Shown here piece by piece: positions 15 through 22,872 of a DNA stretch of 64,000 nt. The notes beneath the pieces are model-generated. The model had not been told where the DNA came from, ran no database searches, and worked only from the letters and a program-made list of their open reading frames with translations. Numbering within the stretch: the first letter of the stretch is position 1; the number at the start of each line of letters is the position of its first letter. The stretch comes from Sphingomonadales bacterium (GTDB lineage: Bacteria; Pseudomonadota; Alphaproteobacteria; Sphingomonadales; Sphingomonadaceae), in contig JAFKLT010000054.1 in the NCBI GenBank assembly GCA_017309275.1, positions 1-64,000 of the forward strand, written 5' to 3'. Made by a program: the position numbers and the translations under genes.

Positions 15-1538
15 TCAGCCCACGTCGGTCCAGGGCATGAGATTTCCGACGTTGTTTGCAGGGTGACCATTTGCCAGTTTGCTGAGCGTCTGGGTCAGCC
101 AGTCGTGCGGGTTAATGCCGCTGATCTTGCAGTTTTCGATGAGCGTGGCGATCACCGCCCAGTTGTCGCCGCCCTCGTCGGATCCGGCGAACAGAGCGTT
201 CTTCCGGTTCAGTGCGAGTGGCCTGATGCTGCGTTCGACGGTGTTGGAGTCGAGGTCGATGCGGCCGTCGTCGATGAACCGGGACAGTCCATCCCAGCGG
301 GTGAGCGCGTAACGGATCGCCTCGCCGAGCTTGCTCTTGGCGCTGACCTGGCGGCCGCGCGCGGCAAGATATTGGTGAAGCTCCTCGACGATGACGCGGC
401 TGCGTTCGGCCCGAGCGGCACAGCGCTGCTCGGCGGTTGAACCACGGACCTCATCCTCGACACGGTAGAGCAAGGCGATCCGGCGTAGCACTTCAGTCGC
501 GACCGGCGAGCTGTCGGCGAGCTCATAGAACTTGCGGCGCACATGCGCCCAGCAGAAAGCGAGCCGGACCTGCTGGCGCCGCCGGGCGAGCGCGGTGTAA
601 CCGCCATAGCCATCGACCTGCAGGATGCCCGCAAAATCGCCAAGATGGGAATGAGGGCGCTCTGCCTTGCGATCTGGCGCATAGACATAGGCCACGATCG
701 GCGGATCGGAGCTGCCCCATGGCCGATCATCGCGAGCATAGGCCCACAGCTGCCCTGTCTTCGTCCGTCCGCGCCCCGGATCGAGGACCGGGGCGGTTGT
801 CTCGTCGGCAAACAATCGCTCGGATCCTCGCAGCGCGCCGAGAATGTGGTCACGCAAGGGACGCAGATACCAGGCGGCTCGCCCAACCCAATCGGCGAGC
901 GTCGATCGGTCGAGCTCGATGCCCTGCCGGGCGTAGATCTGGGCCTGCCGGTAAAGTGGCAAGTGATCGGCATACTTGGATACCAGAACATGCGCGATCA
1001 GCGCCTCGGTGGGAATACCGCCCTCGATGATCCGTGCCGGCGCGGGGGTCTGCACGATCGCGCTCTCGCACGAACGGCAGCCATAACGCGGTCGCCGGGT
1101 GACCAAGACGCGGAAGGTGGTCGGAACTACGTCGAGGCGCTCGGCCACATCCTCGCCGATCTGGTGAAGCGCGCCGCCGCAACAAGGGCAAGCCTTGCTC
1201 TCGACATCGACGATCTGTTCGACCCGCTCGAGGTGCGCCGGCAGTGAACCGCGGTTGGTCCTGCGCGGGCGATCGGCGGGCGTCCGGCTCGCCTTGTCCC
1301 TGGCGTGCTCCGCCTCAGCCATTGCCGTCTCGACTTCCTCAAGCGCAAGCTGGAGCTGATCGGGGTCTAGCTGTTCGGAACGACGGCCAAAACGGTGACG
1401 CTGCAAGGCGTCGATAATCGCCTTCAGGCGTTCAACCTCAACCTTGAAACCCTTGAGCGCATCGAGCTCGCGGGCCTGTTCGAGAACGAGCGCGCGCAGC
1501 GCGTCAACGTCTTCAGGCAGGTCCGCTTCCATGAGCAT
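15..1538 (-). CDS. tnpC: IS66 transposase TnpC
   Basis: This 507-residue protein is the DDE transposase that cuts and joins the IS66 ends. It has the family layout: an N-terminal leucine-rich coiled-coil stretch (about residues 10-70), a Cys-rich zinc-binding part (CPCCGG near 117-122, later YGCRSCE), then the DDE catalytic domain, including the LFADETTAPV segment and the LDSNTVERSIRPLALNRKN segment near the C-terminus that carries the catalytic glutamate. Length is normal and the frame is open, so it may be active. A second Met lies two codons in (MEADLP). It follows tnpB, as in other IS66 elements. Confidence 0.95.
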   Translation of the reverse strand: MLMEADLPEDVDALRALVLEQARELDALKGFKVEVERLKAIIDALQRHRFGRRSEQLDPDQLQLALEEVETAMAEAEHARDKASRTPADRPRRTNRGSLPAHLERVEQIVDVESKACPCCGGALHQIGEDVAERLDVVPTTFRVLVTRRPRYGCRSCESAIVQTPAPARIIEGGIPTEALIAHVLVSKYADHLPLYRQAQIYARQGIELDRSTLADWVGRAAWYLRPLRDHILGALRGSERLFADETTAPVLDPGRGRTKTGQLWAYARDDRPWGSSDPPIVAYVYAPDRKAERPHSHLGDFAGILQVDGYGGYTALARRRQQVRLAFCWAHVRRKFYELADSSPVATEVLRRIALLYRVEDEVRGSTAEQRCAARAERSRVIVEELHQYLAARGRQVSAKSKLGEAIRYALTRWDGLSRFIDDGRIDLDSNTVERSIRPLALNRKNALFAGSDEGGDNWAVIATLIENCKISGINPHDWLTQTLSKLANGHPANNVGNLMPWTDVG

Positions 1539-1569
1539 GGAAACAGTGAATCAGCAGATGAAAGCCGCG

Positions 1570-1926
1570 TCAACCGGCAATCTGCGGTGCTATCGGGCGG
1601 CGTCCGCCATGCACCCGGCGCCAGTCCAAACCCTCGAGCAAAGCGCCAAGTTGCGCGGCCGTGAGCCGCATCACGCCGTCTTGTATGCCCGGCCACTTGA
1701 ACCCGCCGGACTCCAGCCGCTTGGCCATCAGGCACAGGCCCGTTCCGTCCCACCAGACCAGCTTGATCCGGTCGGCACGCTTGGCGCGGAAGACATAGAT
1801 CACGCCGGAATAGGGATCGCCGCCATACTCGGCACTGACCAATGCTGACAGGGCATCGGGCCCCTTGCGGAAATCCACGGGCCGCGTTGCCACCATCACG
1901 CGCGTGCCTGGACCGAGCCCGATCAA
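1570..1926 (-). CDS. tnpB: IS66 accessory protein TnpB
   Basis: This 118-residue protein is the small IS66 TnpB (ORF2), required for transposition together with TnpA and TnpC but of unclear mechanism. Family-typical strings are visible: MVATRPVDFRKGPDAL near the N-terminus, IYVFRAKRADRIKLVWWDGTG in the middle and KRLESGGFKWP after it. It overlaps the end of tnpA by 4 bases (1923-1926), indicating translational coupling, as is usual in this family. Confidence 0.94.
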   Translation of the reverse strand: MIGLGPGTRVMVATRPVDFRKGPDALSALVSAEYGGDPYSGVIYVFRAKRADRIKLVWWDGTGLCLMAKRLESGGFKWPGIQDGVMRLTAAQLGALLEGLDWRRVHGGRRPIAPQIAG

Positions 1927-2369
1927 GGCGACACCCGCAGAGCCTGGAGCACGGCCGTCGCCAGGTCCGTGCTAGCCGTTCGTCCAATCCGGACCACAGC
2001 ACCGCCAACCTCAACTTCGATCGCCCCATCGTGCGACATCGGCTGGGGGCGGTCAGCTACGACAGGAACAAACATCGCCTGACGCTCACTACCGCCATCG
2101 CTGGCCTGACGCGCAGCCCGTGCATAGCGAAGCTCCCGCCGCCAGGTATAAAGCAAGGATGTCCGAATGTCGTGGCGGCGCGCAAATGCGGCTATGTTGT
2201 CGCAATGCTCCAGCTCGGCGACAATCGCCAGCTTCTGCTCCAGTGTCCAGATCCGGCGGCGACCGGCCATCGCACCGAGCAACTCCGGTCGACAAACAGG
2301 CTCCCGAGCCACTCCAGTGTAGGTGTCCAGTGCGCTCGCAAGGCTGTCGTCATCCATACAGCCCATCAT
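1923..2369 (-). CDS. tnpA: IS66 accessory protein TnpA
   Basis: This 148-residue protein is IS66 TnpA (ORF1), a small helix-turn-helix protein related to the IS3 OrfA group, thought to help recognise the element ends. The HTH is seen in RIWTLEQKLAIVAELEH followed by NIAAFARRHDI and TSLLYTWRREL (about residues 39-80). It is the first gene of the element, about 50 bases inside the right inverted repeat, and overlaps tnpB. Several upstream Met codons (MMGCM) leave the exact start uncertain. Confidence 0.9.
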   Translation of the reverse strand: MMGCMDDDSLASALDTYTGVAREPVCRPELLGAMAGRRRIWTLEQKLAIVAELEHCDNIAAFARRHDIRTSLLYTWRRELRYARAARQASDGGSERQAMFVPVVADRPQPMSHDGAIEVEVGGAVVRIGRTASTDLATAVLQALRVSP

Positions 2370-2417
2370 CTGACGCGATCACCCCACGACGCAAGGTGGC
2401 CCGGAAACAGCGCTTAC

Positions 2418-2539
2418 TTACGCCGCGGGAATTGCTTTGCGCGACGATTGCCGGCGCCGTCGCGATAATCGACCAGCCACACGGTCTTCACCGAACCGTC
2501 CTTTGCGGGCGGGAGAACCCGTTTGCGGATGCTAGCCAA
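2418..2539 (-). pseudogene. tyrosine integrase, N-terminal stub cut by IS66
   Basis: The first 40 or so codons of a phage-type tyrosine integrase remain. From a TTG start at 2539 the frame reads MASIRKRVLPP, then VKTVWLVDYRDGAGNRRAKQF, then PRRK, which is the usual opening of alphaproteobacterial integrases (arm-binding beta strands with W-x-V-D-Y and a K-x-F motif). GGAGAGG lies 8 bases before the TTG. The TTG overlaps the TAG stop of the upstream regulator gene, so the two were translationally coupled. The frame ends on entering the IS66 right end; the rest of the gene should lie left of base 1. It is presumably inactive. Confidence 0.8.
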
Positions 2540-3143
2540 GATCCCGACCTCTCCATACGTCGCCCTCGCCGCCGACCTCTTCTGCCCACGCCGCGAGTCG
2601 AGATTTGAAGTCGGGGAAGCCATCAGGCTTAAGCTTGGACGCGAGCAACTCAGAGAGACGCTCGATCAGACCCGAAAGCGAAAAGACCGACCACCTGATC
2701 GGTCCTTCGACCGCCAACATCAGTTCCAGTCGCTTTCTCGCATAATCTTGATCGATCGCTGTAACACCAAGGTGCTCGGATAAACGATCACCGTGGACGA
2801 GATCTTGGAGGCTTAATGTTGGGGCTTCACAAAAGACCGGCTCCCCACCGGAGATCGCTAACGTTGCACCGCCGGCAAGCTGAGCAAAGCTTGCTTCGAT
2901 GATCTTGATGGCTCGCTCCGGCGAAATGCTGAATTCATTGAGCTGCAAAGCCACGCCTAGAAGAAAAGCATGCTCCGCATAGTAGGTAGCAGCTCGGCCG
3001 CGGCCTGTGTTGACGCCGGGAGGAAAGCCCAATCGCTGCAAATGTTTCAGCCGATTAGAAAACGCCGAACGCTTTTCCTCCGCGATTCCGTGAATCTCTG
3101 CCAGCGCCGCTTCAACCTCTGCGAATCCATAACCCACTGCCAC
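2532..3143 (-). CDS. putative phage-type HTH regulator upstream of integrase
   Basis: This is a protein of about 203 residues with no family I can name. The N-terminal part (about residues 25-65) has a MerR-like look: a helix, then RLGFPPG, a basic GRGRAATYY turn, then a hydrophobic helix, suggesting DNA binding; the C-terminal half is helical. The start is set at GTG 3143 because a clear GGAGG (3148-3152) lies 4 bases upstream; the more distal ATG at 3164 has no ribosome binding site and would place that GGAGG inside the gene. It is divergent from the rightward phage operon and its stop overlaps the integrase start, so a regulator of excision or early expression is a reasonable inference. 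Confidence 0.6.
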   Translation of the reverse strand: MAVGYGFAEVEAALAEIHGIAEEKRSAFSNRLKHLQRLGFPPGVNTGRGRAATYYAEHAFLLGVALQLNEFSISPERAIKIIEASFAQLAGGATLAISGGEPVFCEAPTLSLQDLVHGDRLSEHLGVTAIDQDYARKRLELMLAVEGPIRWSVFSLSGLIERLSELLASKLKPDGFPDFKSRLAAWAEEVGGEGDVWRGRDLG

Positions 3144-3513: not shown

Positions 3514-3822
3514 ATGACGACTAATACCACATCCGCGACGGCGAGCAAATCGTCCTCGCCCCAGCGCCACATCGACCTCGAACACGTCTACGGCGAGCTG
3601 CAGGTCGCGACCGTATTCATCGACGCGACCGAGCAGTTTCTCTGTGACCTTCGCATGGCGATGCCTGACAGCGACCCGAGCGAAAGAACCGTAGGCATTT
3701 GCCTGCAAATCGACACGATGCTTTGCGAGATCAAACGCGTCACTAAGATGGTCTACACCGACCTGAGCGACTTCATAGACGCTTCGCCAGCCGCCAATCT
3801 CCGCGTCGGAGTACTGTCATGA
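3514..3822 (+). CDS. hypothetical phage-like protein
   Basis: This 102-residue protein is not recognised. The start at 3514 follows GGAG by 8 bases and is preferred to an upstream Met at 3460. The sequence is helical with alternating acidic and hydrophobic residues (HVYGELQVATVFIDATEQF, then ICLQIDTMLCEIKRVTKMVY) and reads like a small four-helix protein. It overlaps the next gene by 4 bases (ATGA), marking a tightly packed translationally coupled operon. Confidence 0.65.
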   Translation: MTTNTTSATASKSSSPQRHIDLEHVYGELQVATVFIDATEQFLCDLRMAMPDSDPSERTVGICLQIDTMLCEIKRVTKMVYTDLSDFIDASPAANLRVGVLS

Positions 3823-4064
3823 GCGCGGCGCTAGACCAGCTCGAACAGACCCTTTGCGCCAATGAGCGCCAAGGGGTCCTTATAGAAACCATCGACGAGA
3901 AGCTGCACTACGCGCTCGACAGCATGCCCGCAGGAAAACGCCGCGACGACGAGATACGCACCTGCTGGCTCCTGCTCTGGACGGCGCGGGAAGCGCATGA
4001 CCGTCTGCACAAACAGTTCGGAGACGCACACGAAGGCATTCTTGCCGAAAGGGGGGCGTCATGA
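3819..4064 (+). CDS. hypothetical phage-like protein
   Basis: This 81-residue, charged, mostly helical protein is unrecognised. It is coupled to both neighbours by 4-base ATGA overlaps (3819-3822 and 4061-4064). The size and helix pattern resemble the preceding gene, so the two may be divergent relatives, but identity is not obvious by eye. There is no signal peptide or membrane segment. Confidence 0.6.
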   Translation: MSAALDQLEQTLCANERQGVLIETIDEKLHYALDSMPAGKRRDDEIRTCWLLLWTAREAHDRLHKQFGDAHEGILAERGAS

Positions 4065-4453
4065 CCGCTTCGGCGAACACATCCGACGTCATGCACGGGG
4101 ATGCAGAACTCCTCGCTGCATGGGGACGTCGCTCCATCGCCAACGCGATCTATGGCACCCTGCCTTTCTCGGATTGCCCCGGCAAAGCCTATACACCGGA
4201 GGAGCAAGAGCAACTCGACATCATCGACGAGGCCGAAGCGCTCATCAAAGACGCTGCAGCTTCAACGCCGCAAGGTATCGCGGTGCAGGTTTGGACCGCA
4301 CTTTCCCACATCGAACAGACCCGCGATGCTGAAGCCGCGATCAACATAATGGACCTGGACTGGTTCCTGATCGACGAGTCCCGGTTTGATTGGTCCGTTC
4401 GGCTGATCATCGCTGCATTGAAATCGCTGCGCGCGATGGGAGGTTCGGCATGA
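4061..4453 (+). CDS. hypothetical phage-like protein
   Basis: This 130-residue protein is unrecognised. It is acidic and helical, with segments EQEQLDIIDEAEALI and DLDWFLIDESRFDWSVRLIIAALKSLRAM and no Cys-based or catalytic motif. It lies in the coupled early operon, overlapping the neighbours on both sides by 4 bases. Confidence 0.6.
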   Translation: MTASANTSDVMHGDAELLAAWGRRSIANAIYGTLPFSDCPGKAYTPEEQEQLDIIDEAEALIKDAAASTPQGIAVQVWTALSHIEQTRDAEAAINIMDLDWFLIDESRFDWSVRLIIAALKSLRAMGGSA

Positions 4454-4731
4454 ACAGCCCGGATCTTTCCTCAATCGCCCGCGGCGTCCCCGACGTCGAT
4501 CTGCTTCGCGCCCTCGCCGCGACCAATCGGACTGCGCTCGAACGTATGATCGAGGTGTCGATCGACATCCTGGACGAAGTTGACGGCGACGCAGATGATC
4601 AGGACGGCTGCGGCGCCGAGGACGAACCTTGCGCGTACTTCGCTCTCGAAGGTCGAGGCGCCGGCTGCCTCGTCAGCGACAATGATTTCGATGAGGTGTG
4701 GAACCGCCCGAATGCGGAGTCGGACGCATGA
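4450..4731 (+). CDS. hypothetical acidic phage-like protein
   Basis: This is a 93-residue, strongly acidic protein, including a run ILDEVDGDADDQDGCGAEDEP. The start at 4450 is chosen because GGGAGG lies 8 bases upstream and it overlaps the previous stop by 4 bases; an earlier Met at 4390 lies inside the upstream gene. The high negative charge is reminiscent of DNA-mimic or inhibitor proteins of phages, but that is speculation. It overlaps the next gene by 4 bases. Confidence 0.6.
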   Translation: MNSPDLSSIARGVPDVDLLRALAATNRTALERMIEVSIDILDEVDGDADDQDGCGAEDEPCAYFALEGRGAGCLVSDNDFDEVWNRPNAESDA

Positions 4732-4922
4732 GCCGCGCCCACATCGAAATCCGGCGCGACGGACCGCTATTCCGCATCGCAGTCAACCCGGAGACCGCTC
4801 TGCCGAAAGGCTGGAACCGGCCCCAGACGTTCAGCTCGCATCCCCTCGCCAGGATGGGCGCCAAACTGATGTCGGATGCGTCCGGCCTACCCGTCGTCGA
4901 CATGGCGAAGGCTGGGAATTGA
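4728..4922 (+). CDS. hypothetical small protein
   Basis: This 64-residue protein is unrecognised: MSRAHIEIRRDGPLFRIAVN then a Pro/Trp-containing stretch. The start at 4728 overlaps the previous stop by 4 bases. It ends 2 bases before the GTG of the TOPRIM gene, so both are probably on one message. No enzymatic motif is visible. Confidence 0.55.
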   Translation: MSRAHIEIRRDGPLFRIAVNPETALPKGWNRPQTFSSHPLARMGAKLMSDASGLPVVDMAKAGN

Positions 4923-4924
4923 TC

Positions 4925-5815
4925 GTGGCAACCGCTTATCAACCTCGGCCCATAAAGCGGTCGCGACGTACTCGCGATCAGGTCGCGCAGCTCGACGATC
5001 AGATTGTCGACGTGCTGCGCGAAGATCATCCGCAGAGCGTCCGTCACGTGTTTTACCGCATGACGGACCCTCGATTGCCCGAACCAGTCGAGAAGACGGA
5101 GCACGGCTACAAGCAAGTGCAGCACCGGATCGCCGAGCTTCGGCGCCGGGGCGGCTTGCCATATTCGTGGATAAGCGATGCGACGCGGCGGGGCTACCAT
5201 GTCGCGACGTTCGATGACGAAGCCGATTTCCTTCGCCGCGTAGCCGGAAGTTACAGGGCCGATGTCTGGCGGGACGCCGCAGTCTACTGCGAAATCTGGT
5301 GCGAAAGCAGATCGATCGCGGGCGTCATCCAAGCCGACTGCCAGCGATTGGCAGTATCGCTCTACCCGGCAGGCGGCTTCACAAGCATGACCTTGGCCTT
5401 CGAGGCGGCCGAACAAATCAAGGTGCTCGCAGCCGGGCGCCCTGCGGTGATCTTCTACGTCGGGGACTACGATCCCGCCGGCGTCCTGATCGACGTGGAT
5501 ATTCGAAACAAACTGCGCGAGCACCTTGGGGGTGAGGTCGAAATCGACTTTCGGCGCATCGGCATCACGCCCGAACAAATCCGGTTGTTCGACCTTCCGA
5601 CCAAGCCTCGCAAGGTCGGCGATCGTCGCGCGCTCCACGTCCAAGAGACCGTCGAAGCCGAGGCGATGCCCGCGCATATCCTGCGCGGCCTGCTCACGGC
5701 AGAGATAGAAGCACTGTTGCCGCCTGATGCCGTCACGGCCGCTCAGATGGAGGAGAAGGCCGCGCGCCAATATTTCGGTGCGATCGCGGACCTCACTGCG
5801 CAGGGGCGGGTCTGA
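4925..5815 (+). CDS. TOPRIM protein resembling Topo VI subunit A / Spo11 (Mini-A-like)
   Basis: This 296-residue protein begins at GTG 4925. Two features point to the Topo VI-A/Spo11 fold. Residues about 20-90 contain SVRHVFYRM (Tyr44), placed like the catalytic tyrosine of the Spo11 5Y-CAP winged helix, followed by a conserved-looking YKQVQHRIAELRRRG and ISDATRRGY. Residues about 119-200 form a TOPRIM domain: WCESRS with Glu127, GGFTSMT, and FYVGDYDPAG with Asp181 and Asp183. No GHKL ATPase partner (B subunit) is present nearby, which fits the stand-alone Mini-A proteins of mobile elements. Activity could be DNA nicking, cleavage or topological relaxation during replication or recombination of the element; this is inference. 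The stop overlaps the next start by one base. Confidence 0.65.
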   Translation: MATAYQPRPIKRSRRTRDQVAQLDDQIVDVLREDHPQSVRHVFYRMTDPRLPEPVEKTEHGYKQVQHRIAELRRRGGLPYSWISDATRRGYHVATFDDEADFLRRVAGSYRADVWRDAAVYCEIWCESRSIAGVIQADCQRLAVSLYPAGGFTSMTLAFEAAEQIKVLAAGRPAVIFYVGDYDPAGVLIDVDIRNKLREHLGGEVEIDFRRIGITPEQIRLFDLPTKPRKVGDRRALHVQETVEAEAMPAHILRGLLTAEIEALLPPDAVTAAQMEEKAARQYFGAIADLTAQGRV

Positions 5816-6630
5816 TGGCCGATAAGCGGCGTCAAAAATACGAGCCGAAGCACATGAGGCTCTACAAGACGATGACCGACTCGTTGGCGTGGCAGCACCT
5901 TAGCGGCAACGCGATGAAAGTCCTTCTAGCGCTCGTGGCGCGCGATGACGGCAAGCGAAACGGTAAGATCGGCTTCAGTTGCCGCGAGGCATCAGGCGTG
6001 ACGGGATTGAGTTCTCGTACCTGTTGGCGATGCTTTGCCGAGCTGCAGGAAAAAGGCTTTATTGTGTGTACGCAAGCAGGCGGATTCTCGCGAAAGGTCT
6101 CCCACGCCGCTCTTTGGCGGTACACATGGGCAGCATGGCCAGAAGGCAGAAAGGGACCGACCCGCGATTTCGAGAAATGGAAGCCCGATGGAAATTCACG
6201 GTTGAAGTTTTTGTCTGTCACGGATGCAAATTTTGCCGGAAACTTGGAAACACCCGGCGAACCGGTAGCAAAAAATTCAACAGGAAACTTGGAAACTCCG
6301 CAGGATTCCGATGTTTCCAATTTTGCAGAAACTACAACACTTATAAGTTACCATGGGGACCCGCACGGGGATCCGGTATCTGACCAACGGAAACGGGCGG
6401 AAACTACATCGCGGCCCGATCGCGAATTTCGGCTCGGCGACGAAGTTGCCGACCTTCGGCTTCTGACAACTGCGCATCTCGACGAGTTCGGGCCAGGCTC
6501 CCAATCGCGCCTCGCCGCTCGGATCGACTGCCCACCCGGGACATTCTCGAAGTTCATCAACGGCCGAAATCTACCGGTCGAATATCGGCGGCCGCTGGCC
6601 GCTGCTCTGATGGAGGCATCACATGCATAA
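5815..6630 (+). CDS. phage replication-type protein with two DNA-binding regions
   Basis: This is a 271-residue protein. The N-terminal 100 residues form a winged-helix region (LSGNAMKVLLALVARDD, then FSCREASGVTGLSSRTCWRCFAELQEKGFI) of the type found in phage O-like and plasmid replication-initiation proteins. A low-complexity linker follows, and the C-terminal part (QSRLAARIDCPPGTFSKFINGRNLP, about residues 227-251) looks like an XRE-type helix-turn-helix. It overlaps the TOPRIM gene by one base (TGATG). Origin recognition or replication control is the likeliest role, by context. Confidence 0.6.
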   Translation: MADKRRQKYEPKHMRLYKTMTDSLAWQHLSGNAMKVLLALVARDDGKRNGKIGFSCREASGVTGLSSRTCWRCFAELQEKGFIVCTQAGGFSRKVSHAALWRYTWAAWPEGRKGPTRDFEKWKPDGNSRLKFLSVTDANFAGNLETPGEPVAKNSTGNLETPQDSDVSNFAETTTLISYHGDPHGDPVSDQRKRAETTSRPDREFRLGDEVADLRLLTTAHLDEFGPGSQSRLAARIDCPPGTFSKFINGRNLPVEYRRPLAAALMEASHA

Positions 6631-6820
6631 CCCCGAACAATTCAACGCCGCCCAATGGCTCGCCCACTGGACCGAGGCGGGTGGAGGCTGGGTCGGACGG
6701 AGTCTGCTCCTGCCGCCGCAACATCGTCGAGCTTTGCGGTGCATGGTCGATGATTTGGCCCCGGACGAGCTTCGCGCCGTGGCCGAGCATATGGGCGTCA
6801 ACGTGGAGCCGGCAGAATGA
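6623..6820 (+). CDS. hypothetical small protein
   Basis: This 65-residue protein is unrecognised: HNPEQFNAAQWLAHWTEAGG, then a basic stretch and DDLAPDELRAVAEHMGVNV. It overlaps the upstream gene by 8 bases and the downstream gene by 4, so expression is coupled. The high Trp content near the N-terminus is notable. Confidence 0.55.
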   Translation: MHNPEQFNAAQWLAHWTEAGGGWVGRSLLLPPQHRRALRCMVDDLAPDELRAVAEHMGVNVEPAE

Positions 6821-7242
6821 CGGTCACCGACATTGCCGAGGCGAGGCGTCGGCGCGATGAGCGTCGGGAGCATATCCGGCAGGCGACGCGCTGGGCATTT
6901 GAAATCATGCCGTGGCGCTGCACCATTACGTCAGATGAATTCGTCAGCCGCTGGCATGACCTCACATCGAGTGAGCGATACGAGGTTGCGCAGACAGTCG
7001 ATCGCATGACGCATGAGTTCCAAGCTGCGGCAGTGGCGCCGGCGCTGGATTACGATGATCTCATGAGCCGCCTCGCCGGGCGCGAGAAATGGTGGAACCA
7101 CGTTGCAAGCTGGTCATATCTTCAAGGGCCTCATCCCGATTATGAATCTGCTGACTTCATCGATCACTTCAGCCAGATTTCGCGCTCGGAGTTGCTTATG
7201 GGGATTATCCATGCCCGCCGTATCCGAAACGTGATGAAATGA
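6817..7242 (+). CDS. hypothetical phage-like protein
   Basis: This 141-residue protein is unrecognised. It starts with a basic helical stretch (IAEARRRRDERREHIRQATRWAF) and continues with aromatic-rich helices (KWWNHVASWSYLQ). There is no signal peptide. It is coupled to both neighbours by 4-base overlaps (6817-6820, 7239-7242). Confidence 0.55.
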   Translation: MTVTDIAEARRRRDERREHIRQATRWAFEIMPWRCTITSDEFVSRWHDLTSSERYEVAQTVDRMTHEFQAAAVAPALDYDDLMSRLAGREKWWNHVASWSYLQGPHPDYESADFIDHFSQISRSELLMGIIHARRIRNVMK

Positions 7243-7979
7243 CCGACGCAGAAATTGTTATTCACGCCATCGAGCGCCTATCGATACCGATTGACCGGCA
7301 TGAAGCGCTAAAGGCTAACCTGGCCGCGGTCATCGACGATCTACTTCAAGCCGGATTATATGCCGGTTTCCGGCCAGCTAGCATGGGTCGCCTCGGTAGC
7401 CCGACAAGCATCGTGAAGGCTATAGACGAGATCGCGGCGGGCCTGTCGCAAATCGAGCGCGGGCTGCAGCAGTTGGACGATGCTCGAAGATCGAACGCTG
7501 CAGGAAACCAGGTTCGCGGGGCCGAACTTGAGCGTTTGCAACACGGCACCTTGAGGGCGATTGTTTGCGGGATCAGTAGTCGCCTTCCCGGTCACAATCT
7601 GTCCGATGATCTGGTTGAAAGCGCCATGCCGCGCTACGGTACTGACTGGTTCGCTGGGTCGTGGAACGGCGTTTTCAGCGGAGCGTCAGACAGTGTAGCC
7701 GGGCTCGGCAGACTCGCTTCAGTCGACCGGCTCCGCGCCAAGAAGACGCCGGACGAATGGCGCGATCGCCTAATAGTCCACCTCGCCGCTGCCTTCGAGG
7801 CATTGACCGATGAGCGGGCTACGGCATTTAGACCTGGGGGGAACCCGAAGCCTGACTATCGCTCGCAGTTCTGCCGATTTGTTGCTGATTTGTGGCCGAT
7901 CTGGTTTCCGGCGCCCGCAGCAGCGCCATCCAATGGAACGATCGAGCGTGCGCTGACGGCATATCGAACGACCAAATAG
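7239..7979 (+). CDS. hypothetical phage-like protein
   Basis: This is a 246-residue protein without a recognised family. The first half is helical with a possible coiled-coil segment (AAGLSQIERGLQQLDDARRS); the second half has a tryptophan-rich end (FCRFVADLWPIWFPAP). It is the last gene of the first tightly coupled block; an 89-base gap with a hairpin follows. Confidence 0.55.
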   Translation: MTDAEIVIHAIERLSIPIDRHEALKANLAAVIDDLLQAGLYAGFRPASMGRLGSPTSIVKAIDEIAAGLSQIERGLQQLDDARRSNAAGNQVRGAELERLQHGTLRAIVCGISSRLPGHNLSDDLVESAMPRYGTDWFAGSWNGVFSGASDSVAGLGRLASVDRLRAKKTPDEWRDRLIVHLAAAFEALTDERATAFRPGGNPKPDYRSQFCRFVADLWPIWFPAPAAAPSNGTIERALTAYRTTK

Positions 7980-8039
7980 CAACCGATCTCCGCGTCGTAA
8001 TTTGGGCGTTATCCACGTCAGCGCGATTGCTTCATCCAT

Positions 8040-8068
8040 GGTGCACATTCTGCTCAAGGAGCTGCACC
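8040..8068 (+). promoter_or_regulatory. hairpin enclosing the ribosome binding site of the 8069 gene
   Basis: GGTGCA (8040-8045) pairs with TGCACC (8063-8068), and inside it GCTC (8052-8055) pairs with GAGC (8059-8062). The AGGAG ribosome binding site (8057-8061) lies in the loop and inner stem, immediately before the ATG at 8069. It could throttle translation; this is inference from base pairing only. Confidence 0.4.
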
Positions 8069-8263
8069 ATGCACATGCCCATCGCAAAACGGGCGCTTTC
8101 AGTCCGAGAAGCCGCCGAAGCTTCGTCGCTCAGCAAATCGCAAATCCACAACCTCATCCGTGACGGCCGCCTTCGCGCCGGTCGTATCGGTAAGCGCGTC
8201 ATCATCCCCAGCCAAGCACTCGACGATCTTCTTGAGAGCGCCGCGGGCATGAAGGTCTCGTGA
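8069..8263 (+). CDS. excisionase/MerR-like HTH protein
   Basis: This 64-residue protein has a clear HTH_17 winged-helix plan: LSVREAAEASSLSKSQIHNLI (helix-turn-helix), DGRLRAGRIGKRVIIP (wing) and SQALDDLLES. Such proteins are excisionases or small activators in phages and integrative elements. The start follows AGGAG by 7 bases. It begins a second coupled block of small genes, overlapping the next start by one base (TGATG). Confidence 0.78.
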   Translation: MHMPIAKRALSVREAAEASSLSKSQIHNLIRDGRLRAGRIGKRVIIPSQALDDLLESAAGMKVS

Positions 8264-8502
8264 TGGGTCGGCCAATCGATCCCCTTGCGGACATGATCCT
8301 TCACGGTGTCGGCCACGATCCGCGCGATTGCACGACAGAGGCCGAAATGAACGAGGCCGTCGTTGACATGATGCAGCGGGCTCGGGAGTTCGATCGCCAC
8401 ACCGAAAGCATGCGTGCTGGCGTTCCCGGCGTCATCGCCCATCTGCGGCGCGATATTGTTCGCGCGCAACTCGCGCACCTACGTCGCTCGATTGGAGGCT
8501 GA
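8263..8502 (+). CDS. hypothetical small protein
   Basis: This protein of about 79 residues is unrecognised and helical: TEAEMNEAVVDMMQRAREFDRH, then basic IAHLRRDIVRAQLAHLRRSIGG. A GTG one codon earlier (8260) is an alternative start; ATG at 8263 is preferred because it overlaps the upstream TGA. The next gene begins 3 bases downstream. Confidence 0.55.
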   Translation: MGRPIDPLADMILHGVGHDPRDCTTEAEMNEAVVDMMQRAREFDRHTESMRAGVPGVIAHLRRDIVRAQLAHLRRSIGG

Positions 8503-8505
8503 GCG

Positions 8506-8697
8506 ATGATCAACATCCTCTCCACCCCCCACCGCCAACAGGCCCTCGTCCGCGCCGAGCTTATGCGCCAGCGCGATCACGCTGGCCGAGCAATCGAGCG
8601 CATTCACGCAGACATGGTCGCGAGTGCCGCAGAGTTCGTCGAGCTGACCGAACGCTGGATGGCGAGCAATCCGCCTGCGCTGAGGGGTGGCAAGTGA
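8506..8697 (+). CDS. hypothetical small helical protein
   Basis: This 63-residue, charged helical protein is unrecognised (QQALVRAELMRQRDHAGRAIE, then ASAAEFVELTERWM). It overlaps the next gene by 4 bases and follows the previous stop by 3 bases. Confidence 0.52.
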   Translation: MINILSTPHRQQALVRAELMRQRDHAGRAIERIHADMVASAAEFVELTERWMASNPPALRGGK

Positions 8698-9080
8698 GCG
8701 CCGTCCTCGCTCCGCATTCGGCGCCATCTCGACCGCCACGAGCATTCGACGGAACGCTCCCCGATCCTGCACTCGCGGGCATCTATCGGTACACCGACGT
8801 ATTCGAGAAGCCTTTCACCGGCCCCCAGCCCCGCCGTCGTGCCGAGCAATTCGCCGATGTCGAGTTTGCCGCGCCGATGGCGCGCTGGCTCACCGAGAAT
8901 GATCACACCCGCCCCTTCTTCCGCGACCGAGATTTCATCGCCGAGTTCGGGCGCCTCGCGAAATCAGAAGCGATCGCTGTCGCGAACGCGATGTGGTCGC
9001 GAGCCGATCGCGCCGCCGCCGCCGCGGGAACGAAAATCACACTGCCGGCTCGGCTGGGCGGCGATCCCGAAAGGAGCTAA
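8694..9080 (+). CDS. hypothetical phage-like protein
   Basis: This 128-residue protein is unrecognised. It carries a Pro-rich N-terminus, then ARWLTENDHTRPFFRDRDFIAEFGRLAK and an Ala-rich helix. No motif is recognised. GGAG ends 3 bases before the stop and serves the gene at 9084. Confidence 0.52.
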   Translation: MSAVLAPHSAPSRPPRAFDGTLPDPALAGIYRYTDVFEKPFTGPQPRRRAEQFADVEFAAPMARWLTENDHTRPFFRDRDFIAEFGRLAKSEAIAVANAMWSRADRAAAAAGTKITLPARLGGDPERS

Positions 9081-9083
9081 TCC

Positions 9084-9962
9084 ATGTCACGCTTTTCAGG
9101 TCTTCCTGACCCTCGGGCAAATACTGCTAACCGCTCAGCGCGCTTCACGAAATTGATGGAGGCACTTCAGAAAGCCCGCATCAGTTCGCATGCATCCTAT
9201 GCACAGGGCAGCGACGCGCGGCTGCGCTCGCTTGCCGTCCGCACCCCCGGAGCGGCGCTGGGCGCGACGAAGGTCGCCACCCCCTCGGTACCCGCCCCCA
9301 CGCCATCGCCTGTGGCCAAGCGTGCGCCGGTTGCCGCTGCGAAGCCCGTAGCGACCACACCTCCGCCCCAGCCGTGGAAGGTGCCTGCCGACATCGCTGC
9401 GAAAGGTGCCAACGCTGAAGCCGGCTATCGGATCCTGTTTGAAGCCGTCTCGGATCAGCTCGCGCGGATGTCCAAAATTCCAGCTGCTCAGGGGCGTATC
9501 GCGTCTCTGATCGAAATGGTCGCATCTGGCAGTTCGGACGCCGACGTTCGCGCCGGATTGGCCAACATGCCTACCGACAAACAAAGGCAAATTTCTGCCT
9601 CATGGGATCAGGCTGTTGCCGCAGTTTATCACACTCGCGGCATAAAGCTCGCAAGCGCTGTCGATGCCAGCGGCCCCACTCCTCGCGACGCGGCACGGAA
9701 GCGAATGCTCTCTGTCGCGAGCAGCAGCTTGTTTGTCGGGAATGAGGTTTCCGCACTCAAGTTCCTGACAATGCGTGGGTGCTTCAGCGCTGATGCCGAC
9801 GACCTGCTGGACACGCTGGCGACAGTCACCGGTTCGGCCAAGAGCTCCGAGGGGGTGTGGGACCGCGCCCTCGCCGCTGTTTTGGGAACGAAGCCCAGCG
9901 CCAAACCGGACCCCTACGGCTGGCAAGCAATCCACGCTGATGTGCGTGAACGCCGCCGCTGA
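9084..9962 (+). CDS. hypothetical protein with Pro/Ala-rich linker
   Basis: This is a 292-residue protein. The N-terminal region (about 1-50) is basic, residues about 55-100 form a Pro/Ala/Thr linker (TPSVPAPTPSPVAKR), and a helical C-terminal domain follows (about 105-290, for example AGYRILFEAVSDQLARMS). The domain content is unrecognised. A modular DNA- or protein-binding protein is plausible from the layout but not shown. Confidence 0.55.
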   Translation: MSRFSGLPDPRANTANRSARFTKLMEALQKARISSHASYAQGSDARLRSLAVRTPGAALGATKVATPSVPAPTPSPVAKRAPVAAAKPVATTPPPQPWKVPADIAAKGANAEAGYRILFEAVSDQLARMSKIPAAQGRIASLIEMVASGSSDADVRAGLANMPTDKQRQISASWDQAVAAVYHTRGIKLASAVDASGPTPRDAARKRMLSVASSSLFVGNEVSALKFLTMRGCFSADADDLLDTLATVTGSAKSSEGVWDRALAAVLGTKPSAKPDPYGWQAIHADVRERRR

Positions 9963-9980
9963 TAACTGAAAGGAAGAACA

Positions 9981-10640
9981 ATGAAAAATGAAGTGTTTCG
10001 CCAGGCGGCGTCCGGATTTGCTGCGGTCGACGTGTCTGAAGAAAGCGCGATGATCGCCGAGATCGACGCGAAGATTGCCGTTGCCCAAAAGGGCATCGAA
10101 ACCGCTGAAGATCGATGCTCGGAAATTGCGCGCCTGAAGCAGGGTCTCAAGGGCCCGCAGGGGGCTGACGTCGCGGCTGCGCTCCTGGATGGGGCATCGG
10201 CAACCGACGCCGCTCGCGCTGGCCCAAGCATCGAATCGCTTGAGGAAGAGCGCCTTTCCCTACGCGCCGGGATCAAGGCATTGGGTCATCAGATCGAAGA
10301 TTTGCGCGCCGAGATCGGGAATATCGAGTCCAGCGCTCGGGCGAAGATCGGCGAGATCGCCAGCAGCTTCCATGAAGCGATAATGGCAGAAGCGCGGGGC
10401 AAGTTTGAAGAGATTGCTGCGCTCTACGCCGCCGCAGCCGCTGTGAGCGCTACCACCAGATATGGCGCTTACGAAACATCGCAGTTCCGCGACGTGATGG
10501 AAGTCGCATCGAGAAGCGGCAGCCTGATTTATGGGCTCAGGCGCGTCGACGTACCGGAGGAGGTCAACGCTGCTTTGCAGAACCTCCAGGGCAAGGGCCG
10601 CGCGCTGCGTATCGGGCTGATCACGCAAGCGACAATCTGA
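9981..10640 (+). CDS. hypothetical coiled-coil protein
   Basis: This is a 219-residue protein dominated by heptad-like helices: MIAEIDAKIAVAQKGIETAED, then SIESLEEERLSLRAGIKALGHQ and IEDLRAEIGNIESSARAK. It resembles phage scaffold-like or accessory coiled-coil proteins but no specific family is recognised. AAAGGAAG lies upstream of the ATG. It is the last intact gene of the rightward block. Confidence 0.6.
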   Translation: MKNEVFRQAASGFAAVDVSEESAMIAEIDAKIAVAQKGIETAEDRCSEIARLKQGLKGPQGADVAAALLDGASATDAARAGPSIESLEEERLSLRAGIKALGHQIEDLRAEIGNIESSARAKIGEIASSFHEAIMAEARGKFEEIAALYAAAAAVSATTRYGAYETSQFRDVMEVASRSGSLIYGLRRVDVPEEVNAALQNLQGKGRALRIGLITQATI

Positions 10641-10704
10641 CGAGATCCGATCGGGCGAGCTTCCGCGCTCGGTCGGCGGGTCATCGGGTCCCTTTCGTCA
10701 CCCG

Positions 10705-11172
10705 GTGGCCATCTTCGGGGCGGCCGATCTCTTCGGCTCGGGGTCGGCCGTCCCTCCCTTCATCGATATTCGAACCCCCGCGTGCTCATGCGGTATTCTA
10801 ACGCGGGCACCCTTGGCCGACCATCGCGTAGGCGAGCGGTCGGCCATTTTCTGTCGGCGCTATACCGAGAACCTTCACAGGCTCGACCTGACCAAAGAGC
10901 AGAGGGACGGGCATATCCGTCGGTATGCCGAATTGCTGGAAGCGAGGGCGGCAATTGTCCCGCAAAATGCGGAACAAATCGAAGTTAAGCGGGGCCGACC
11001 TGTCGGCACTGTCACCAAGATCGCGCAAGCCACCGGGCTGAGCAAGTCCACCGTGCGCCGCGCCCTCAACCCTAAGCCGCACGTCCGCGAGTATCCGCCC
11101 GTCCAGGACCGAAAGGAACACAGCCCATGCCTCGCCCGCTTCCGACAGTCGACCAATTGCGGCGCCTTCTGA
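10705..11172 (+). pseudogene. ParB-like protein, C-terminal fragment
   Basis: The region from about 10860 reads RRYTENLHRLDLTKEQRDGHIRRYAELL, then KRGRPVGTVTKIAQATGLSKSTVRRALN. This matches the stretch after the nuclease core in phage-type ParB/Spo0J-like proteins: an E-N-L-x-R-x-D-L-T segment plus a helix-turn-helix. The upstream half of the frame (Cys/Pro-rich, with palindromes) does not look like a ParB N-terminus and the usual GERR motif is missing. It is therefore probably a remnant. It overlaps the start of the HNH gene, whose own start is well supported. The 10641-10704 gap holds only GC-rich short inverted repeats. Confidence 0.5.
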
Positions 11173-11750
11173 CCTATGATCCCGATACGGGCGTTCTGAC
11201 CTGGCTGCCGCGGACCCCCGACATGTTCGCCGGCGCCACAGAACATCGGCGGCGCTGGACGTGCGCGGCATGGAATACCAAATACGCCGGCAAGCCCGCG
11301 CTGATCGGCATCGACGGCTACGGGTATTACCAAGGGCCGATCAACTACCGCTATGTGAAGGCGCATCGGGTGGCGTGGGCGATGCATTACGGCGAATGGC
11401 CCAGCCAGAAGTGCAGCCACCGGAACGGCGATCACCGTGACAACCGTATATCCAATCTCCGCGATGTCGACCATCAGACTTGCCACCGGAACGTCAAATT
11501 GTCGAAGCGGAACAAGACCGGCGCGCCCGGGGTGAACTGGCACGCGCGGATGCAACGGTGGCAGGCCTTTATCCGCTGCGACGGCAAATCGCGGTACCTT
11601 GGGACGTTTCGAACGGCCGCCGAAGCAACGGCCGCTAGGAGGGCAGCCCAAGTCGAGCTGGGCTATCACCCCGATCACGGGCAACCTCGCAAATTCCCGA
11701 ACCACTTCATTCCGAAGCGGGACAGAATGCCTCTTCAAACTCGTGAATGA
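11127..11750 (+). CDS. HNH endonuclease with AP2 domain
   Basis: This 207-residue protein is a homing-type nuclease. An HNH core occupies about residues 74-120: KAHRVAWAMHYGEWP, then CSHRNGDHRDNRISNLRDV with the His-Asn-Asp residues. A C-terminal AP2 DNA-binding domain follows (about 131-178): GAPGVNWHARMQRWQAFI, then GKSRYLGTFRTAAEA. Such enzymes are common free-standing passengers of phage genomes and often cleave alleles lacking them. AAAGGAA lies about 12 bases before the ATG. The insertion next to a ParB fragment suggests it may have displaced that gene. Confidence 0.85.
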   Translation: MPRPLPTVDQLRRLLTYDPDTGVLTWLPRTPDMFAGATEHRRRWTCAAWNTKYAGKPALIGIDGYGYYQGPINYRYVKAHRVAWAMHYGEWPSQKCSHRNGDHRDNRISNLRDVDHQTCHRNVKLSKRNKTGAPGVNWHARMQRWQAFIRCDGKSRYLGTFRTAAEATAARRAAQVELGYHPDHGQPRKFPNHFIPKRDRMPLQTRE

Positions 11751-11847
11751 CCAAAAATATGGGGCCGGTGTCAAAAAAGCGGTTCATCAGCGCATATCGA
11801 TCCGATTTCGCTAACCTAGGACCCGCAGATTTCTGGGAAATTCAACC

Positions 11848-11894
11848 TTAAATGTAAAGCGTGGGTTGACATATTAAATGTAAAGTGACACTTT
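11848..11894 (+). promoter_or_regulatory. probable promoter-operator of the higBA-ligase operon
   Basis: The direct repeat TTAAATGTAAAG occurs at 11848-11859 and 11874-11885, with a TTGACA hexamer between (11866-11871). A palindrome AAAGTGACACTTT spans 11882-11894, overlapping where the -10 box would lie and 6 bases before the GTG of higB. HigA-type antitoxins repress from such palindromes. The short leader suggests a leaderless or nearly leaderless message. Confidence 0.5.
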
Positions 11895-11900
11895 CCATAG

Positions 11901-12188
11901 GTGGAGATCGAGAGCGTCACCCATAAGCCGCTTCGTCGGTTCATCGAGACAGGCAACCCAAGGGGTCTGCCTGGTGACTTGGTGGACCGGCTCTTCAAGA
12001 TGGTGAACTTCATCATCGCTGCGGAAACAATGGACGAGCTCGGCACGCCCCCGAACTATGGCCTGCACCCCCTTACGGGCGATCGGGCTGGCGTCTGGGC
12101 GATGACCGTGTCCCGCAATTGGCGGATGACATTCTCGATCGACGACGACGGAGCAATCATCGACTTGGATTTGGAGGACTATCACTGA
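11901..12188 (+). CDS. higB: HigB-type toxin (RelE/ParE superfamily)
   Basis: This 95-residue protein is the toxin of a type II toxin-antitoxin pair; HigB enzymes cut mRNA on the ribosome. Family features are clear: VTHKPLRRFIETGNPRGLP at the N-terminus, YGLHPLTGDRAGVWAMTV in the middle and SRNWRMTF before the C-terminal DLEDYH. The start is GTG at 11901, which aligns with the usual family N-terminus. The gene order toxin-then-antitoxin is typical of higBA. The stop overlaps the higA start by one base. Confidence 0.88.
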   Translation: MEIESVTHKPLRRFIETGNPRGLPGDLVDRLFKMVNFIIAAETMDELGTPPNYGLHPLTGDRAGVWAMTVSRNWRMTFSIDDDGAIIDLDLEDYH

Positions 12189-12487
12189 TGGCTATCAAGA
12201 TTCATCCCTCTTTCGCGATCCATGCCGGCGAGTGGCTGAAGAGCGAGATCGTCGAGGCGCATGGCGTGTCTATCAATGAGCTGGCGGAGGCCTTCGGGGT
12301 CAGCCGGCAGACGATCAGCGCCGTGCTCAACGGTCGCGCGGCGCTGACGGCCGACATGGCCATCCGCTTCGAGAACGGCTTCGGCGTGAAGGCTGAGACG
12401 CTCTTACGCATGCATGCGCGCTACGAGCTCGCAAAGGCGCGGGAGCATGAAAGCGATCTCGCTGTGAAGTCGCTGATCGCTGCCTGA
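12188..12487 (+). CDS. higA: HigA-type antitoxin, XRE helix-turn-helix
   Basis: This 99-residue protein is the cognate antitoxin and probable autorepressor. IHPSFAIHAGEWLKSEIVEAHGVS is followed by a canonical XRE HTH, INELAEAFGVSRQTISAVLNG (about residues 30-52), then RAALTADMAIRFENGFG and a C-terminal helix. The start at 12188 overlaps the higB stop (TGATG). It is followed with a one-base overlap by a DNA ligase gene, making an unusual three-gene unit. Confidence 0.9.
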   Translation: MAIKIHPSFAIHAGEWLKSEIVEAHGVSINELAEAFGVSRQTISAVLNGRAALTADMAIRFENGFGVKAETLLRMHARYELAKAREHESDLAVKSLIAA

Positions 12488-13176
12488 TGTCCGTCGCGCT
12501 TGCGCCTCGCTCATTCCCCAAGCCCAGGCCCGCCGAACTGTGCATGCTCGCGGGCCGCTGGGCCGATGTGCTCCCCGAGGGCGGGGCGATGGTCGAGCGC
12601 AAGTTCGATGGCTTCCGCTGCCTATTCTTCCGCGGCCTCGATCGACAGCCGGGCCTATGGACGCGGGGCGGCATGCCCATGCCTGGCGCCGGTCATATTC
12701 TCTCTCGCTTGCTTGAGATCGAAGCCGCAATGGGCGGGCCGCACTTCATCGACGGCGAGTTCGTCGTCGACGGCACCCTCGCGGCGACCAAGGCGCATTA
12801 CGAGCGCGGATGGCGTCTTGGCGATGCCGGCGTGTTCCATGCCTTTGATGCCGTGCCCTTTGCGGACTGGGAGCGAGGTCAGTCCGACATCCCCCTGCAC
12901 GAACGCAAAGCAGCATTGGCCCGCGCTATCGCCGCGACCGCTCCCGATGCGTCGGCGTGGGAGTGGCGGGAGGGAAGCCGCGGTGCCGGGCACGGTGTTG
13001 ATCCCGTCGAGCTGGTTGCGGATACTTGGGCCTTTGATGCTGCAGACGTGGAAGCGGAAGCGCAGTTCGCGTGGGCGGCGGGACACGAAGGCGTGTTAGT
13101 GAAGGATGCCGCCGCAGGTTATGTACGCGCCCGGTCGAATGCCTGGATGAAGCTCAAGCGCGTCGGCGAAGACTGA
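12487..13176 (+). CDS. minimal ATP-dependent DNA ligase (adenylation domain only)
   Basis: This 229-residue protein carries the nucleotidyltransferase motifs of ATP-dependent DNA ligases: motif I ERKFDGFR with catalytic Lys39, motif III GLWTRGG (57-63), motif IIIa FIDGEF (87-92), motif IV EGVLVKD (201-207) and motif V WMKLKR (220-225). It stops right after motif V, so the OB-fold domain (motif VI) of full ligases is missing. It would seal nicks only weakly or with a partner. It begins inside the higA stop (TGATG), so it is translated with the toxin-antitoxin pair. No downstream terminator is obvious. Confidence 0.82.
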   Translation: MSVALAPRSFPKPRPAELCMLAGRWADVLPEGGAMVERKFDGFRCLFFRGLDRQPGLWTRGGMPMPGAGHILSRLLEIEAAMGGPHFIDGEFVVDGTLAATKAHYERGWRLGDAGVFHAFDAVPFADWERGQSDIPLHERKAALARAIAATAPDASAWEWREGSRGAGHGVDPVELVADTWAFDAADVEAEAQFAWAAGHEGVLVKDAAAGYVRARSNAWMKLKRVGED

Positions 13177-22795: not shown

Positions 22796-22872
22796 TGGTG
22801 CACCCGCCGCGATTCGAACGCGGGGCCCCCAGATTAGGAATCTGATGCTCTATCCTGCTGAGCTACGGGTGC
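22796..22872 (-). tRNA. tRNA-Arg (anticodon CCU)
   Basis: On the minus strand a 77-base cloverleaf runs from GCACCCG (5' acceptor) to CGGGTGC-A-CCA. The anticodon arm is TCAGA-TTCCTAA-TCTGG with anticodon CCT, and the T arm is CCGCG-TTCGAAT-CGCGG. CCA is encoded. Its 3' end faces the island, consistent with use as an integration site. A short open frame through this region (AAIRTRGPQIRN) is the familiar translation artefact of a tRNA. Confidence 0.95.

Follow-up and report, generated by a model that had tools for sequence, protein, structure and literature searches.

A Mini-A-type Topo VI-A/Spo11 homologue in the predicted replication module of satellite-like, tRNA-integrated islands

The DNA analysed here (the window) comprises positions 1 to 64,000 of contig JAFKLT010000054.1 from a Sphingomonadales bacterium, and its subject is a gene for a protein resembling Spo11 and the A subunit of topoisomerase VI (Topo VI-A), of the type known as Mini-A. 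The open reading frame (ORF) is intact, running from a GTG codon at 4925 for 296 amino acids (aa), by which residues are numbered throughout; a TTG at 4919, which overlaps the upstream stop codon, was favoured as an alternative start by our custom gene caller. A gene at 4728-4922 directly precedes Mini-A, and the Mini-A stop codon shares one base with the start of the following gene at 5815-6630, the product of which resembles O-type replication initiators (O-like). The translation carries the motif R40-H-V-F-Y44, E127 and the stretch G180-D181-Y182-D183-P184-A185-G186, placed as the preliminary description of this DNA had stated for a Spo11-type tyrosine and for TOPRIM residues. All 34 aligned relatives have Y44, R40, E127 and D183, and conservation of D181 among them is 90% or more. 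A set of 19 diverse Mini-A proteins, drawn from phages, plasmids and archaea, shows no change at E127 and D183 and at least 90% conservation at R40, Y44 and D181, the active-site residues being retained down to 21% identity. The ratio of nonsynonymous to synonymous substitution rates (dN/dS) is 0.09 between the window's gene and the copy in the related locus L032 (loci are given here as L numbers), which is 81% identical, and 0.16-0.19 against three other relatives, with dS values of 1.6-1.8 in these four comparisons, near saturation. These ratios indicate that the gene is under purifying selection.

Several comparisons place the protein in the Mini-A family, as the preliminary description had proposed. 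It matches PHROG 6247 ('DNA topoisomerase') over residues 12-289 with an expectation value (E) of 9.5e-43, and two archaeal plasmid genes annotated as Topo Mini-A match it at E 3e-16. The protein of phage NP1, a Mini-A example in a figure legend within the accessible part of PMC7614492, shares 25.7% identity with it over 93% (E 4e-22). Searched with tblastn, the window's Mini-A found matches in 70 of 50,697 phage records and 36 of 72,556 plasmid records, every one below 60% identity, and its sole match in its own genome at E 0.001 was itself. The motif is not a chance occurrence, because the PHROG match is joined by 50 homologous loci and by the low dN/dS ratios. No Pfam or NCBIfam family, TP6A_N included, matched the window's Mini-A over its cut-off, and TP6A_N (PF04406) had no match over cut-off in the whole genome. 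The best match of the genome to the transducer domain of the B subunit (Topo VI-B, PF09239) was at E 0.34, under the cut-off, and no B subunit was found over it, in line with the earlier statement that a B-subunit gene is missing; archaeal controls passed the PF09239 cut-off in 4 of 14 genomes.

The relationship to Topo VI-A was examined with profiles of the 34 Mini-A relatives (A1), of the 19 diverse Mini-A proteins (A2) and of three Topo VI-A proteins (A3). Against PDB sequences, A1 gave a single match at E up to 10, Topo VI-A 1d3y (E 0.007); A2 likewise matched 1d3y alone at E up to 1 (E 0.093), and the single window sequence had Topo VI-A first (E 0.21), followed by four chance matches. 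With hhalign, A2 and A3 aligned at E 5.1e-4 across the TOPRIM half and, without realignment, at E 1.9e-4 with the tyrosine motif included, Y44 then pairing with the second tyrosine of R-E-L-Y-Y of Topo VI-A. The AlphaFold2 model of the protein (mean predicted local distance difference test (pLDDT) score 84.1, predicted template-modelling score (pTM) 0.75) had the A subunit of M. mazei Topo VI (9o7o_A) as its top Foldseek match, with a probability of 1.00. Other aspects of the same comparisons count against the assignment: the two hhalign probabilities are low (31% and 23%, respectively), A1 and one Topo VI-A sequence gave no useful match in hhalign (E 0.35), the superposition on 9o7o_A is partial and weak (E 4.2e-3, template-modelling score 0.32, 187 columns), and Foldseek found no match for the model at E 0.001, the other 49 matches shown being other folds of lower probability.

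The active site of M. mazei Topo VI is given as Y106 with R102, E202, D254, D256 and E342 in the accessible part of PMC13040014. By motif order, Y106, R102, E202, D254 and D256 would correspond to Y44, R40, E127, D181 and D183 of the window's protein, and E244, which is conserved in the alignments of both 34 and 19 proteins, is a candidate counterpart of E342. Each of these lines is weak alone; since motif order, residues and best match agree, the window's gene is, at the level of sequence, a stand-alone, B-less Topo VI-A/Spo11 homologue of the Mini-A type. A better match to OLD- or DnaG-type TOPRIM proteins, which would have spoken for another family, was looked for and rejected, because neither family was found for the window's protein in Pfam, NCBIfam or PADLOC and because Topo VI-A was the only PDB sequence matched by A1.

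The source of the Mini-A family is said to be Takahashi et al. 2020 (lqz021). Topo VIII includes B-type ATPase functions, which are absent here. Both are relatives of type IIB topoisomerases on mobile elements (PMC7614492, accessible part), and Mini-A is a known family, described in the accessible parts of PMC7614492, PMC8185306 and PMC11302465. Like other members, the window's protein is a stand-alone, Topo VI-A-like product of a mobile element and is homologous to the Mini-A of NP1 and of archaeal plasmids. In contrast to them, its clade is divergent, with V-R-H-V-F-Y replacing L-R-Q-L-Y-Y, and lies in tRNA-integrated satellites beside an O-like initiator, a setting of which the accessible parts of these three sources give no account. 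With Topo VI-A and Spo11, Mini-A shares Arg-x3-Tyr, the TOPRIM Glu and Asp-x-Asp, and an L-P-T-x-P segment; however, it is shorter (296 aa versus 363-377 in the three aligned Topo VI-A proteins), has no match to TP6A_N and occurs here in a genome without a B subunit over cut-off. L098, from a genome of the window's class, carries at 790-3134 a gene for Topo VI-A and, after it, what is probably one for Topo VI-B; this locus provides the only TP6A_N match among 398 Pseudomonadota genomes.

The neighbourhood of Mini-A was surveyed in 46 loci, dereplicated from 94, taking three genes upstream and four downstream as called with a custom small gene caller. An O-like gene lies near Mini-A in 23 of the 46, of which 21 were found with a hidden Markov model (HMM) and two (L015 and L025), missed by the gene caller, by alignment. 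This agrees with the earlier suggestion of a link to the neighbouring replication-type protein, with the limit that many of the 20 sequences behind the HMM come from the counted loci themselves, which therefore match it by construction. Twelve further loci have a primase/helicase gene, one a primosomal gene (L017, 92% identical to a scanned gene of L087), and ten remained unlabelled; Pfam domains in these neighbours include Prim-Pol with D5_N, DUF927 with Toprim, AAA_25, and Prim-Pol alone. Conversely, a scan with one O-like protein retrieved eight contigs, all of them known Mini-A contigs. Annotated replication genes lie near Mini-A in five of seven phage regions: Sak4-like, ligase, helicase and primase genes in NP1, a helicase in FPSV-S8, a polymerase in RDJL Phi 2, polymerase III alpha and SSB in TCUEAP2, and a helicase and polymerases in Lumi. 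One of six plasmid regions has toprim and helicase genes near Mini-A.

When related satellites were sampled by their capsid genes instead, 28 contigs were obtained, in 20 of which the slot was visible; Mini-A occupies it in six (L061, L067, L068, L126, L129 and L130, the frame of L126 containing one stop). In the 14 islands without Mini-A, a replication-type protein stands in the slot of 13, L138 being unlabelled. Pfam, applied to eight of the 14, found replication proteins in six (DUF3987 in two, AAA_25, D5_N with DUF5906, Prim-Pol with AAA_25, and a plasmid Replicase) and no match in L136 and L138. By blastp, the proteins of L133 and L135 are more than 92% identical to the DUF3987 protein of L128, that of L136 is 62% identical to an L129 protein assigned as primase by PHROGs, and those of L140, L141 and L144 match an AAA_25 protein at E of about 1e-7 to 3e-8. 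L142 has an O-like gene in the slot and no Mini-A in six frames. Mini-A, as its neighbours indicate, is part of an early replication module, in a slot equivalent to that of ordinary replication genes. This placement has to be set against the 14 of 20 capsid-sampled satellites in which no Mini-A was found (six frames, E 0.01), the two of seven phage regions (Smarc5 and BirdInFrench) without an annotated replication gene near Mini-A, and the five of six plasmid regions likewise without one, in which many genes are hypothetical or unlisted; one of these five, a Vibrio plasmid, has only translesion-polymerase genes. The 15-kb plasmid of Paenibacillus durus (L101) carries Mini-A and a gene with a Zot domain, and no annotated Rep.

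The window's O-like protein matches PHROG 678 ('replication initiation O-like') at E 4.6e-4 and is 43% identical to its homologue in L074, the same as the L002 gene, which matches PHROG 270 ('replication initiation protein') at E 1.3e-10 and PHROG 345 at E 7.1e-8. In NCBIfam, phage_O_Nterm stayed under its cut-off for L002, and the window's protein had no match. A first scan for iterons, which looked for nine-mers with four occurrences within 350 bp, picked out only some of the loci. Measured from the Mini-A start, the densest repeats fall at +1290..+1500 in 18 of the 46 loci, mostly inside or just past the O-like gene. The nominal p of 3e-15 serves as a guide only, given the relatedness of the loci and the choice of this interval once the first cases had been seen. 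Repeat scores exceed those of all 20 shuffles in 30 loci, 13 of which have their repeats in this interval. In the same interval, 19 of the 46 loci have direct repeats of 10 nt or more, with a lag of 33 in 12 and of 45 in six; seven control regions have them in 1/44, 7/46, 2/46, 6/42, 3/42, 3/45 and 2/44, where no lag is common to more than three loci. The iteron sequences are lineage-specific.

Repeat copies run past the stop codon of the O-like gene in 10 of 17 loci (a count without shuffle control), and in several they lie in other frames or on the other strand; peptide repeats in place of DNA iterons were therefore rejected for most relatives. In the other seven loci, to which the window belongs, all copies are confined to the gene and peptide repeats may account for them, the 45-bp spacing in the window keeping the frame. 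In phage lambda, the origin lies within gene O and consists of four 18-bp iterons and an AT-rich stretch (PMC3349717, accessible part). A probable winged-helix initiator with iterons inside its gene is what many relatives share with lambda, whereas the relatives have their iterons at the 3' end of the gene, in many cases past the stop codon, often spaced 33 and 44-45 bp apart and specific to each lineage, with no P-like gene recognised and with Mini-A upstream in most. From this arrangement, the origin-specific initiator is likely the O-like neighbour (5815-6630) rather than Mini-A. Several observations make this less certain for the window and for Mini-A in general. The O-like protein of the window itself is only weakly supported by PHROG, and its iterons lie within the range of the shuffles (score 56 versus a mean of 39.4 and a maximum of 58). 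The densest repeats lie elsewhere in 28 of the 46 loci, of which some are explained by an upstream O-like gene (L043 and L045) and others, such as L007, L010, L012 and L030, have no explanation; in two of the 18 loci inside the interval, L053 and L016, that position holds a primase gene and the score stays under the shuffle maximum. Finally, L142 has at 3819-4330 an O-like gene and then repeats phased by 33, 33 and 45 bp, so that Mini-A is not required for such an origin. A different kind of repeat was seen in L030, an uncultured Pseudomonadales chromosome: a long inverted repeat at 5349-5536, whose arms measure some 40-50 nt and which, unlike the iterons of other loci, precedes Mini-A by about 600 bp and differs from them in kind.

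Mini-A loci with 54-81% identity to the window's protein number 50, of which 29 come from genomes and 21 from viral contigs; a profile search of viral contigs gave 29 loci, mostly on the same contigs as the 21. The gene is rare, occurring in 3 of 398 Pseudomonadota genomes and in 2 of 148 genomes of relatives, with the window's own genome counted in both. Going by record titles, Mini-A satellites are presumably found in Alpha-, Beta- and Gammaproteobacteria. A recurrent order consists of an integrase, helix-turn-helix (HTH) proteins, Mini-A and the O-like gene, then capsid, protease, portal, HNH, TerS and TerL genes; Pfam supports these in representatives, TerS at E 0.004 only, which is under the cut-off, and PHROGs recognises head-tail connectors in relatives. 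In 9 of 21 chromosomal loci, the Mini-A element is bounded by exact repeats, 45-59 nt long and overlapping a tRNA gene, which are spaced by 9,117-11,027 bp in eight and by 16,826 bp in one; in the other 12, no such repeat was found within the stretch examined. Two of the nine, L085 and L087, are not independent, because their Mini-A are 99% identical.

Between the attachment-site (att) repeats of L084 and L086 lie an integrase, Mini-A, a replication gene, and head and packaging genes; no tail gene was recognised there, some small genes having been outside the scan. This layout is that of capsid-forming satellites, insofar as the recognised genes define it. Judged against the gene list of capsid-forming phage-inducible chromosomal islands (cf-PICI), the relatives share the integrase, an HTH_17 protein, a replication gene, HNH, TerS, TerL, portal, protease, capsid and connectors, with no tail gene recognised in L084 and L086. 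They differ in having Mini-A in the replication slot and, for the window's own element, in lacking recognised capsid genes. They are also mostly smaller, at 9-11 kb versus a cf-PICI mean of 14 kb (PMC10803314, accessible part). Other members depart from the layout of L084 and L086, with tape-measure genes in L080 and L097 and a tail-fibre-like gene in L091. At 5875-18623, L097 carries Mini-A together with a prohead-protease-like protein, a tail chaperone, a tape-measure protein and neck proteins, and none of its scanned genes was recognised as capsid or terminase; it is possibly a tail-carrying type of satellite. The window's own element looks like an atypical member of this class of integrative, satellite-like, tRNA-integrated islands. 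The phage-like operon of the preliminary description holds, by this reading, as a mobile-element setting, with a satellite-like island in a tRNA-Arg gene taking the place of a plain phage operon.

We propose the following hypothetical sequence of events, in which (i) the island would excise from its tRNA gene; (ii) the initiator encoded beside Mini-A, here O-like, would bind the phased iterons in its own gene and start replication of the circle; (iii) Mini-A would act on the replicating circle, at a step we can only infer; and (iv) the likeliest chemistry, given the conservation of Tyr44, would be a transient or permanent tyrosyl-linked cleavage that provides either topology relief or ends with a free 3'-OH for further replication. 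We hold with moderate confidence that a B-less Mini-A belongs to a satellite replication module and acts on the circle after the initiator. Mini-A looks like an optional accessory DNA-cleaving or topology factor of this module, not the recogniser of its origin: since it accompanies several unrelated initiators, a generic action on the circle is likelier than origin recognition. The preliminary description had Mini-A cut DNA to initiate replication or recombination; its link to replication stands, whereas initiation is only partly supported, because of these unrelated initiators and because of the O-like gene and iterons of L142 without Mini-A, and the role of origin-specific initiator falls more readily to the O-like neighbour. 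A bolder form of the proposal, in which Mini-A would be a dedicated satellite replication enzyme that makes protein-capped breaks with a free 3'-OH on the circle and works with interchangeable initiators, is put forward tentatively, as a possibility that we consider doubtful.

Less probable still is that Mini-A is itself the initiating nuclease, comparable to Rep, breaking DNA at or near the origin so that the 3'-OH primes rolling-circle or recombination-type replication, with the O-like protein only positioning it. Mini-A occurs on an 8.8-kb archaeal and the 15-kb Paenibacillus plasmid without an annotated Rep, and no replication protein beyond Mini-A and the O-like protein is found among the called genes of the att-bounded L084; however, the genes of both plasmids are mostly hypothetical, so that annotation may miss a Rep, and Mini-A pairs with several unrelated initiators, while L142 has the O-like gene and iterons without it. 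We regard it as improbable that Mini-A turns replicated circles into concatemers for the terminase, by cuts that lead to sigma or recombination-dependent replication. The capsid-bearing relatives do have HNH, TerS and TerL, and none of the proteins scanned, in a search that was not systematic in this respect, proved to be a strand-annealing or recombination protein, but 13 of the 14 satellites lacking Mini-A have HNH, TerS and TerL as well, the last having TerS and TerL, and Mini-A also occurs where no terminase is recognised, as in the window and the archaeal and Paenibacillus plasmids. A defence nuclease against helpers or competitors, like the TOPRIM nuclease JetD of Wadjet, is more improbable again: TOPRIM-dimer endonucleases are present in Wadjet and Gabija (PMC13040014, accessible part), and weak JetD matches were obtained for two of five proteins tried (L074, E 0.016; NP1 Mini-A, E 0.0014), whereas no PADLOC model matches the window's Mini-A, which sits in the replication slot and overlaps the initiator gene, and Mini-A lies near polymerase, primase or helicase genes in the five phage regions named above. 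That Mini-A is a passenger or a degenerate TOPRIM protein without catalytic function would fit its rarity in Pseudomonadota and its absence from most related satellites, but is very improbable in view of the active-site residues kept down to 21% identity and the strong purifying selection.

The Mini-A family itself is already known; what is new is its context in a satellite replication module with a likely initiator. To our knowledge, no role has been assigned to Mini-A, and we know of no such replication support by protein-capped breaks in satellites. Among the matches listed in our literature search, no title or abstract opening puts Mini-A in satellites or in a replication module; Takahashi et al. 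2020 may treat its neighbourhoods. A 2021 review (PMC8185306, accessible part) states that neither Topo VIII nor Mini-A from archaea had been characterised. If the proposal for Mini-A as a replication factor of satellites is true, it would represent a new mode of satellite replication support, a first function for the family, and a Spo11-type enzyme serving DNA replication rather than meiosis or strand passage. The compact module, with its likely initiator and candidate origin, makes the function of Mini-A directly testable, and the findings point to capsid-carrying, tRNA-integrated satellites in many Proteobacteria.

The features of the window's own element are collected in Table 1. Its integrase gene is split by an insertion sequence, which we take to be of the IS66 type; the two pieces lie at 2414-2539 and at 9418-10437 of C19, a contig of the same genome that terminates in 148 bases identical to positions 1-148 of the window. 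Beside the integrase on C19 lies the left tRNA-Arg copy, the 3' half of the gene with a 17-nt exact core and with T-stem differences that keep pairing; apart from this diverged copy, no second tRNA-Arg copy was found in the window (up to 3 mismatches per 25 nt) or in the genome (up to 2 mismatches per 25 nt). Because of its position beside the integrase, the element probably runs from the C19 copy to the tRNA-Arg gene at 22796-22872, roughly 24 kb with the insertion sequence. The left arm, from the integrase piece and its neighbour through the HTH_17 protein and small genes to Mini-A, the O-like gene and a further small gene, matches L097, L032 and L074 gene by gene, each of the three lacking some of these genes and only L074 having a detectable O-like homologue. 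The HTH_17 protein, presumably AlpA-type, is 50-68% identical to the same gene in all three; L097 belongs to the window's genus and has a Mini-A with 31% identity.

Table 1. Coordinates of features of the Mini-A element in the window
Feature	Position	Strand	Details
Insertion sequence; transposase ORFs 15-1538, 1570-1926, 1923-2369	15..2369	-	Parts two integrase pieces
5' piece of tyrosine integrase gene, first 41 residues	2414..2539	-	Remainder on contig C19:9418-10437
Integrase-adjacent protein, counterparts in sister elements	2532..3137	-	Part of left arm
HTH_17 excisionase-like protein, 59 aa	3258..3437	+	Pfam HTH_17 E 5.8e-8
Small gene, 93 aa	4450..4731	+	Counterparts upstream of Mini-A in two sister elements
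Mini-A (Topo VI-A/Spo11-like) gene	4925..5815	+	296 aa; winged-helix part Arg40/Tyr44; TOPRIM part Glu127, Asp181, Asp183
Tyr44 codon, candidate catalytic tyrosine	5054..5056	+	Invariant in 34 relatives; Topo VI-A tyrosine alignment
O-like winged-helix replication initiator gene (likely), 271 aa	5815..6630	+	PHROG 678 E 4.6e-4
Iteron-like repeats, candidate origin	6229..6343	+	Starts 6229, 6274, 6319; 45-bp phase; inside O-like gene
Small gene, 65 aa	6623..6820	+	Counterparts after initiator slot in two sister elements
tRNA-Arg(CCT), probable right attachment site	22796..22872	-	Partial copy near C19 9107

Two features of this element count against a functional satellite in the window itself. 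No capsid, portal or terminase cluster members were found among the genes called in 1-24000, the only virion-like genes recognised being one for a tape-measure-like protein (17373-20954) and one for a DUF6441 protein, and the integrase gene is split; the element may for these reasons no longer be mobile. It may also be composite, because a serine recombinase gene and tail-like genes at 15665-20954 lie inside it. The large serine recombinase (14061-15650) has Resolvase and Recombinase domains and, in its C-terminal part, two stretches of HNH_repeat, a domain associated with homing endonucleases. Adjoining it on the opposite strand (minus), the tail-like remnant at 15665-20954 comprises the tape-measure-like protein of 1193 aa and the DUF6441 protein. 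A protein of 210 aa resembling ATP-dependent DNA ligases is encoded at 12544-13176 (Pfam DNA_ligase_A_M, E 5.8e-8); in phage NP1, a ligase gene also lies near Mini-A.

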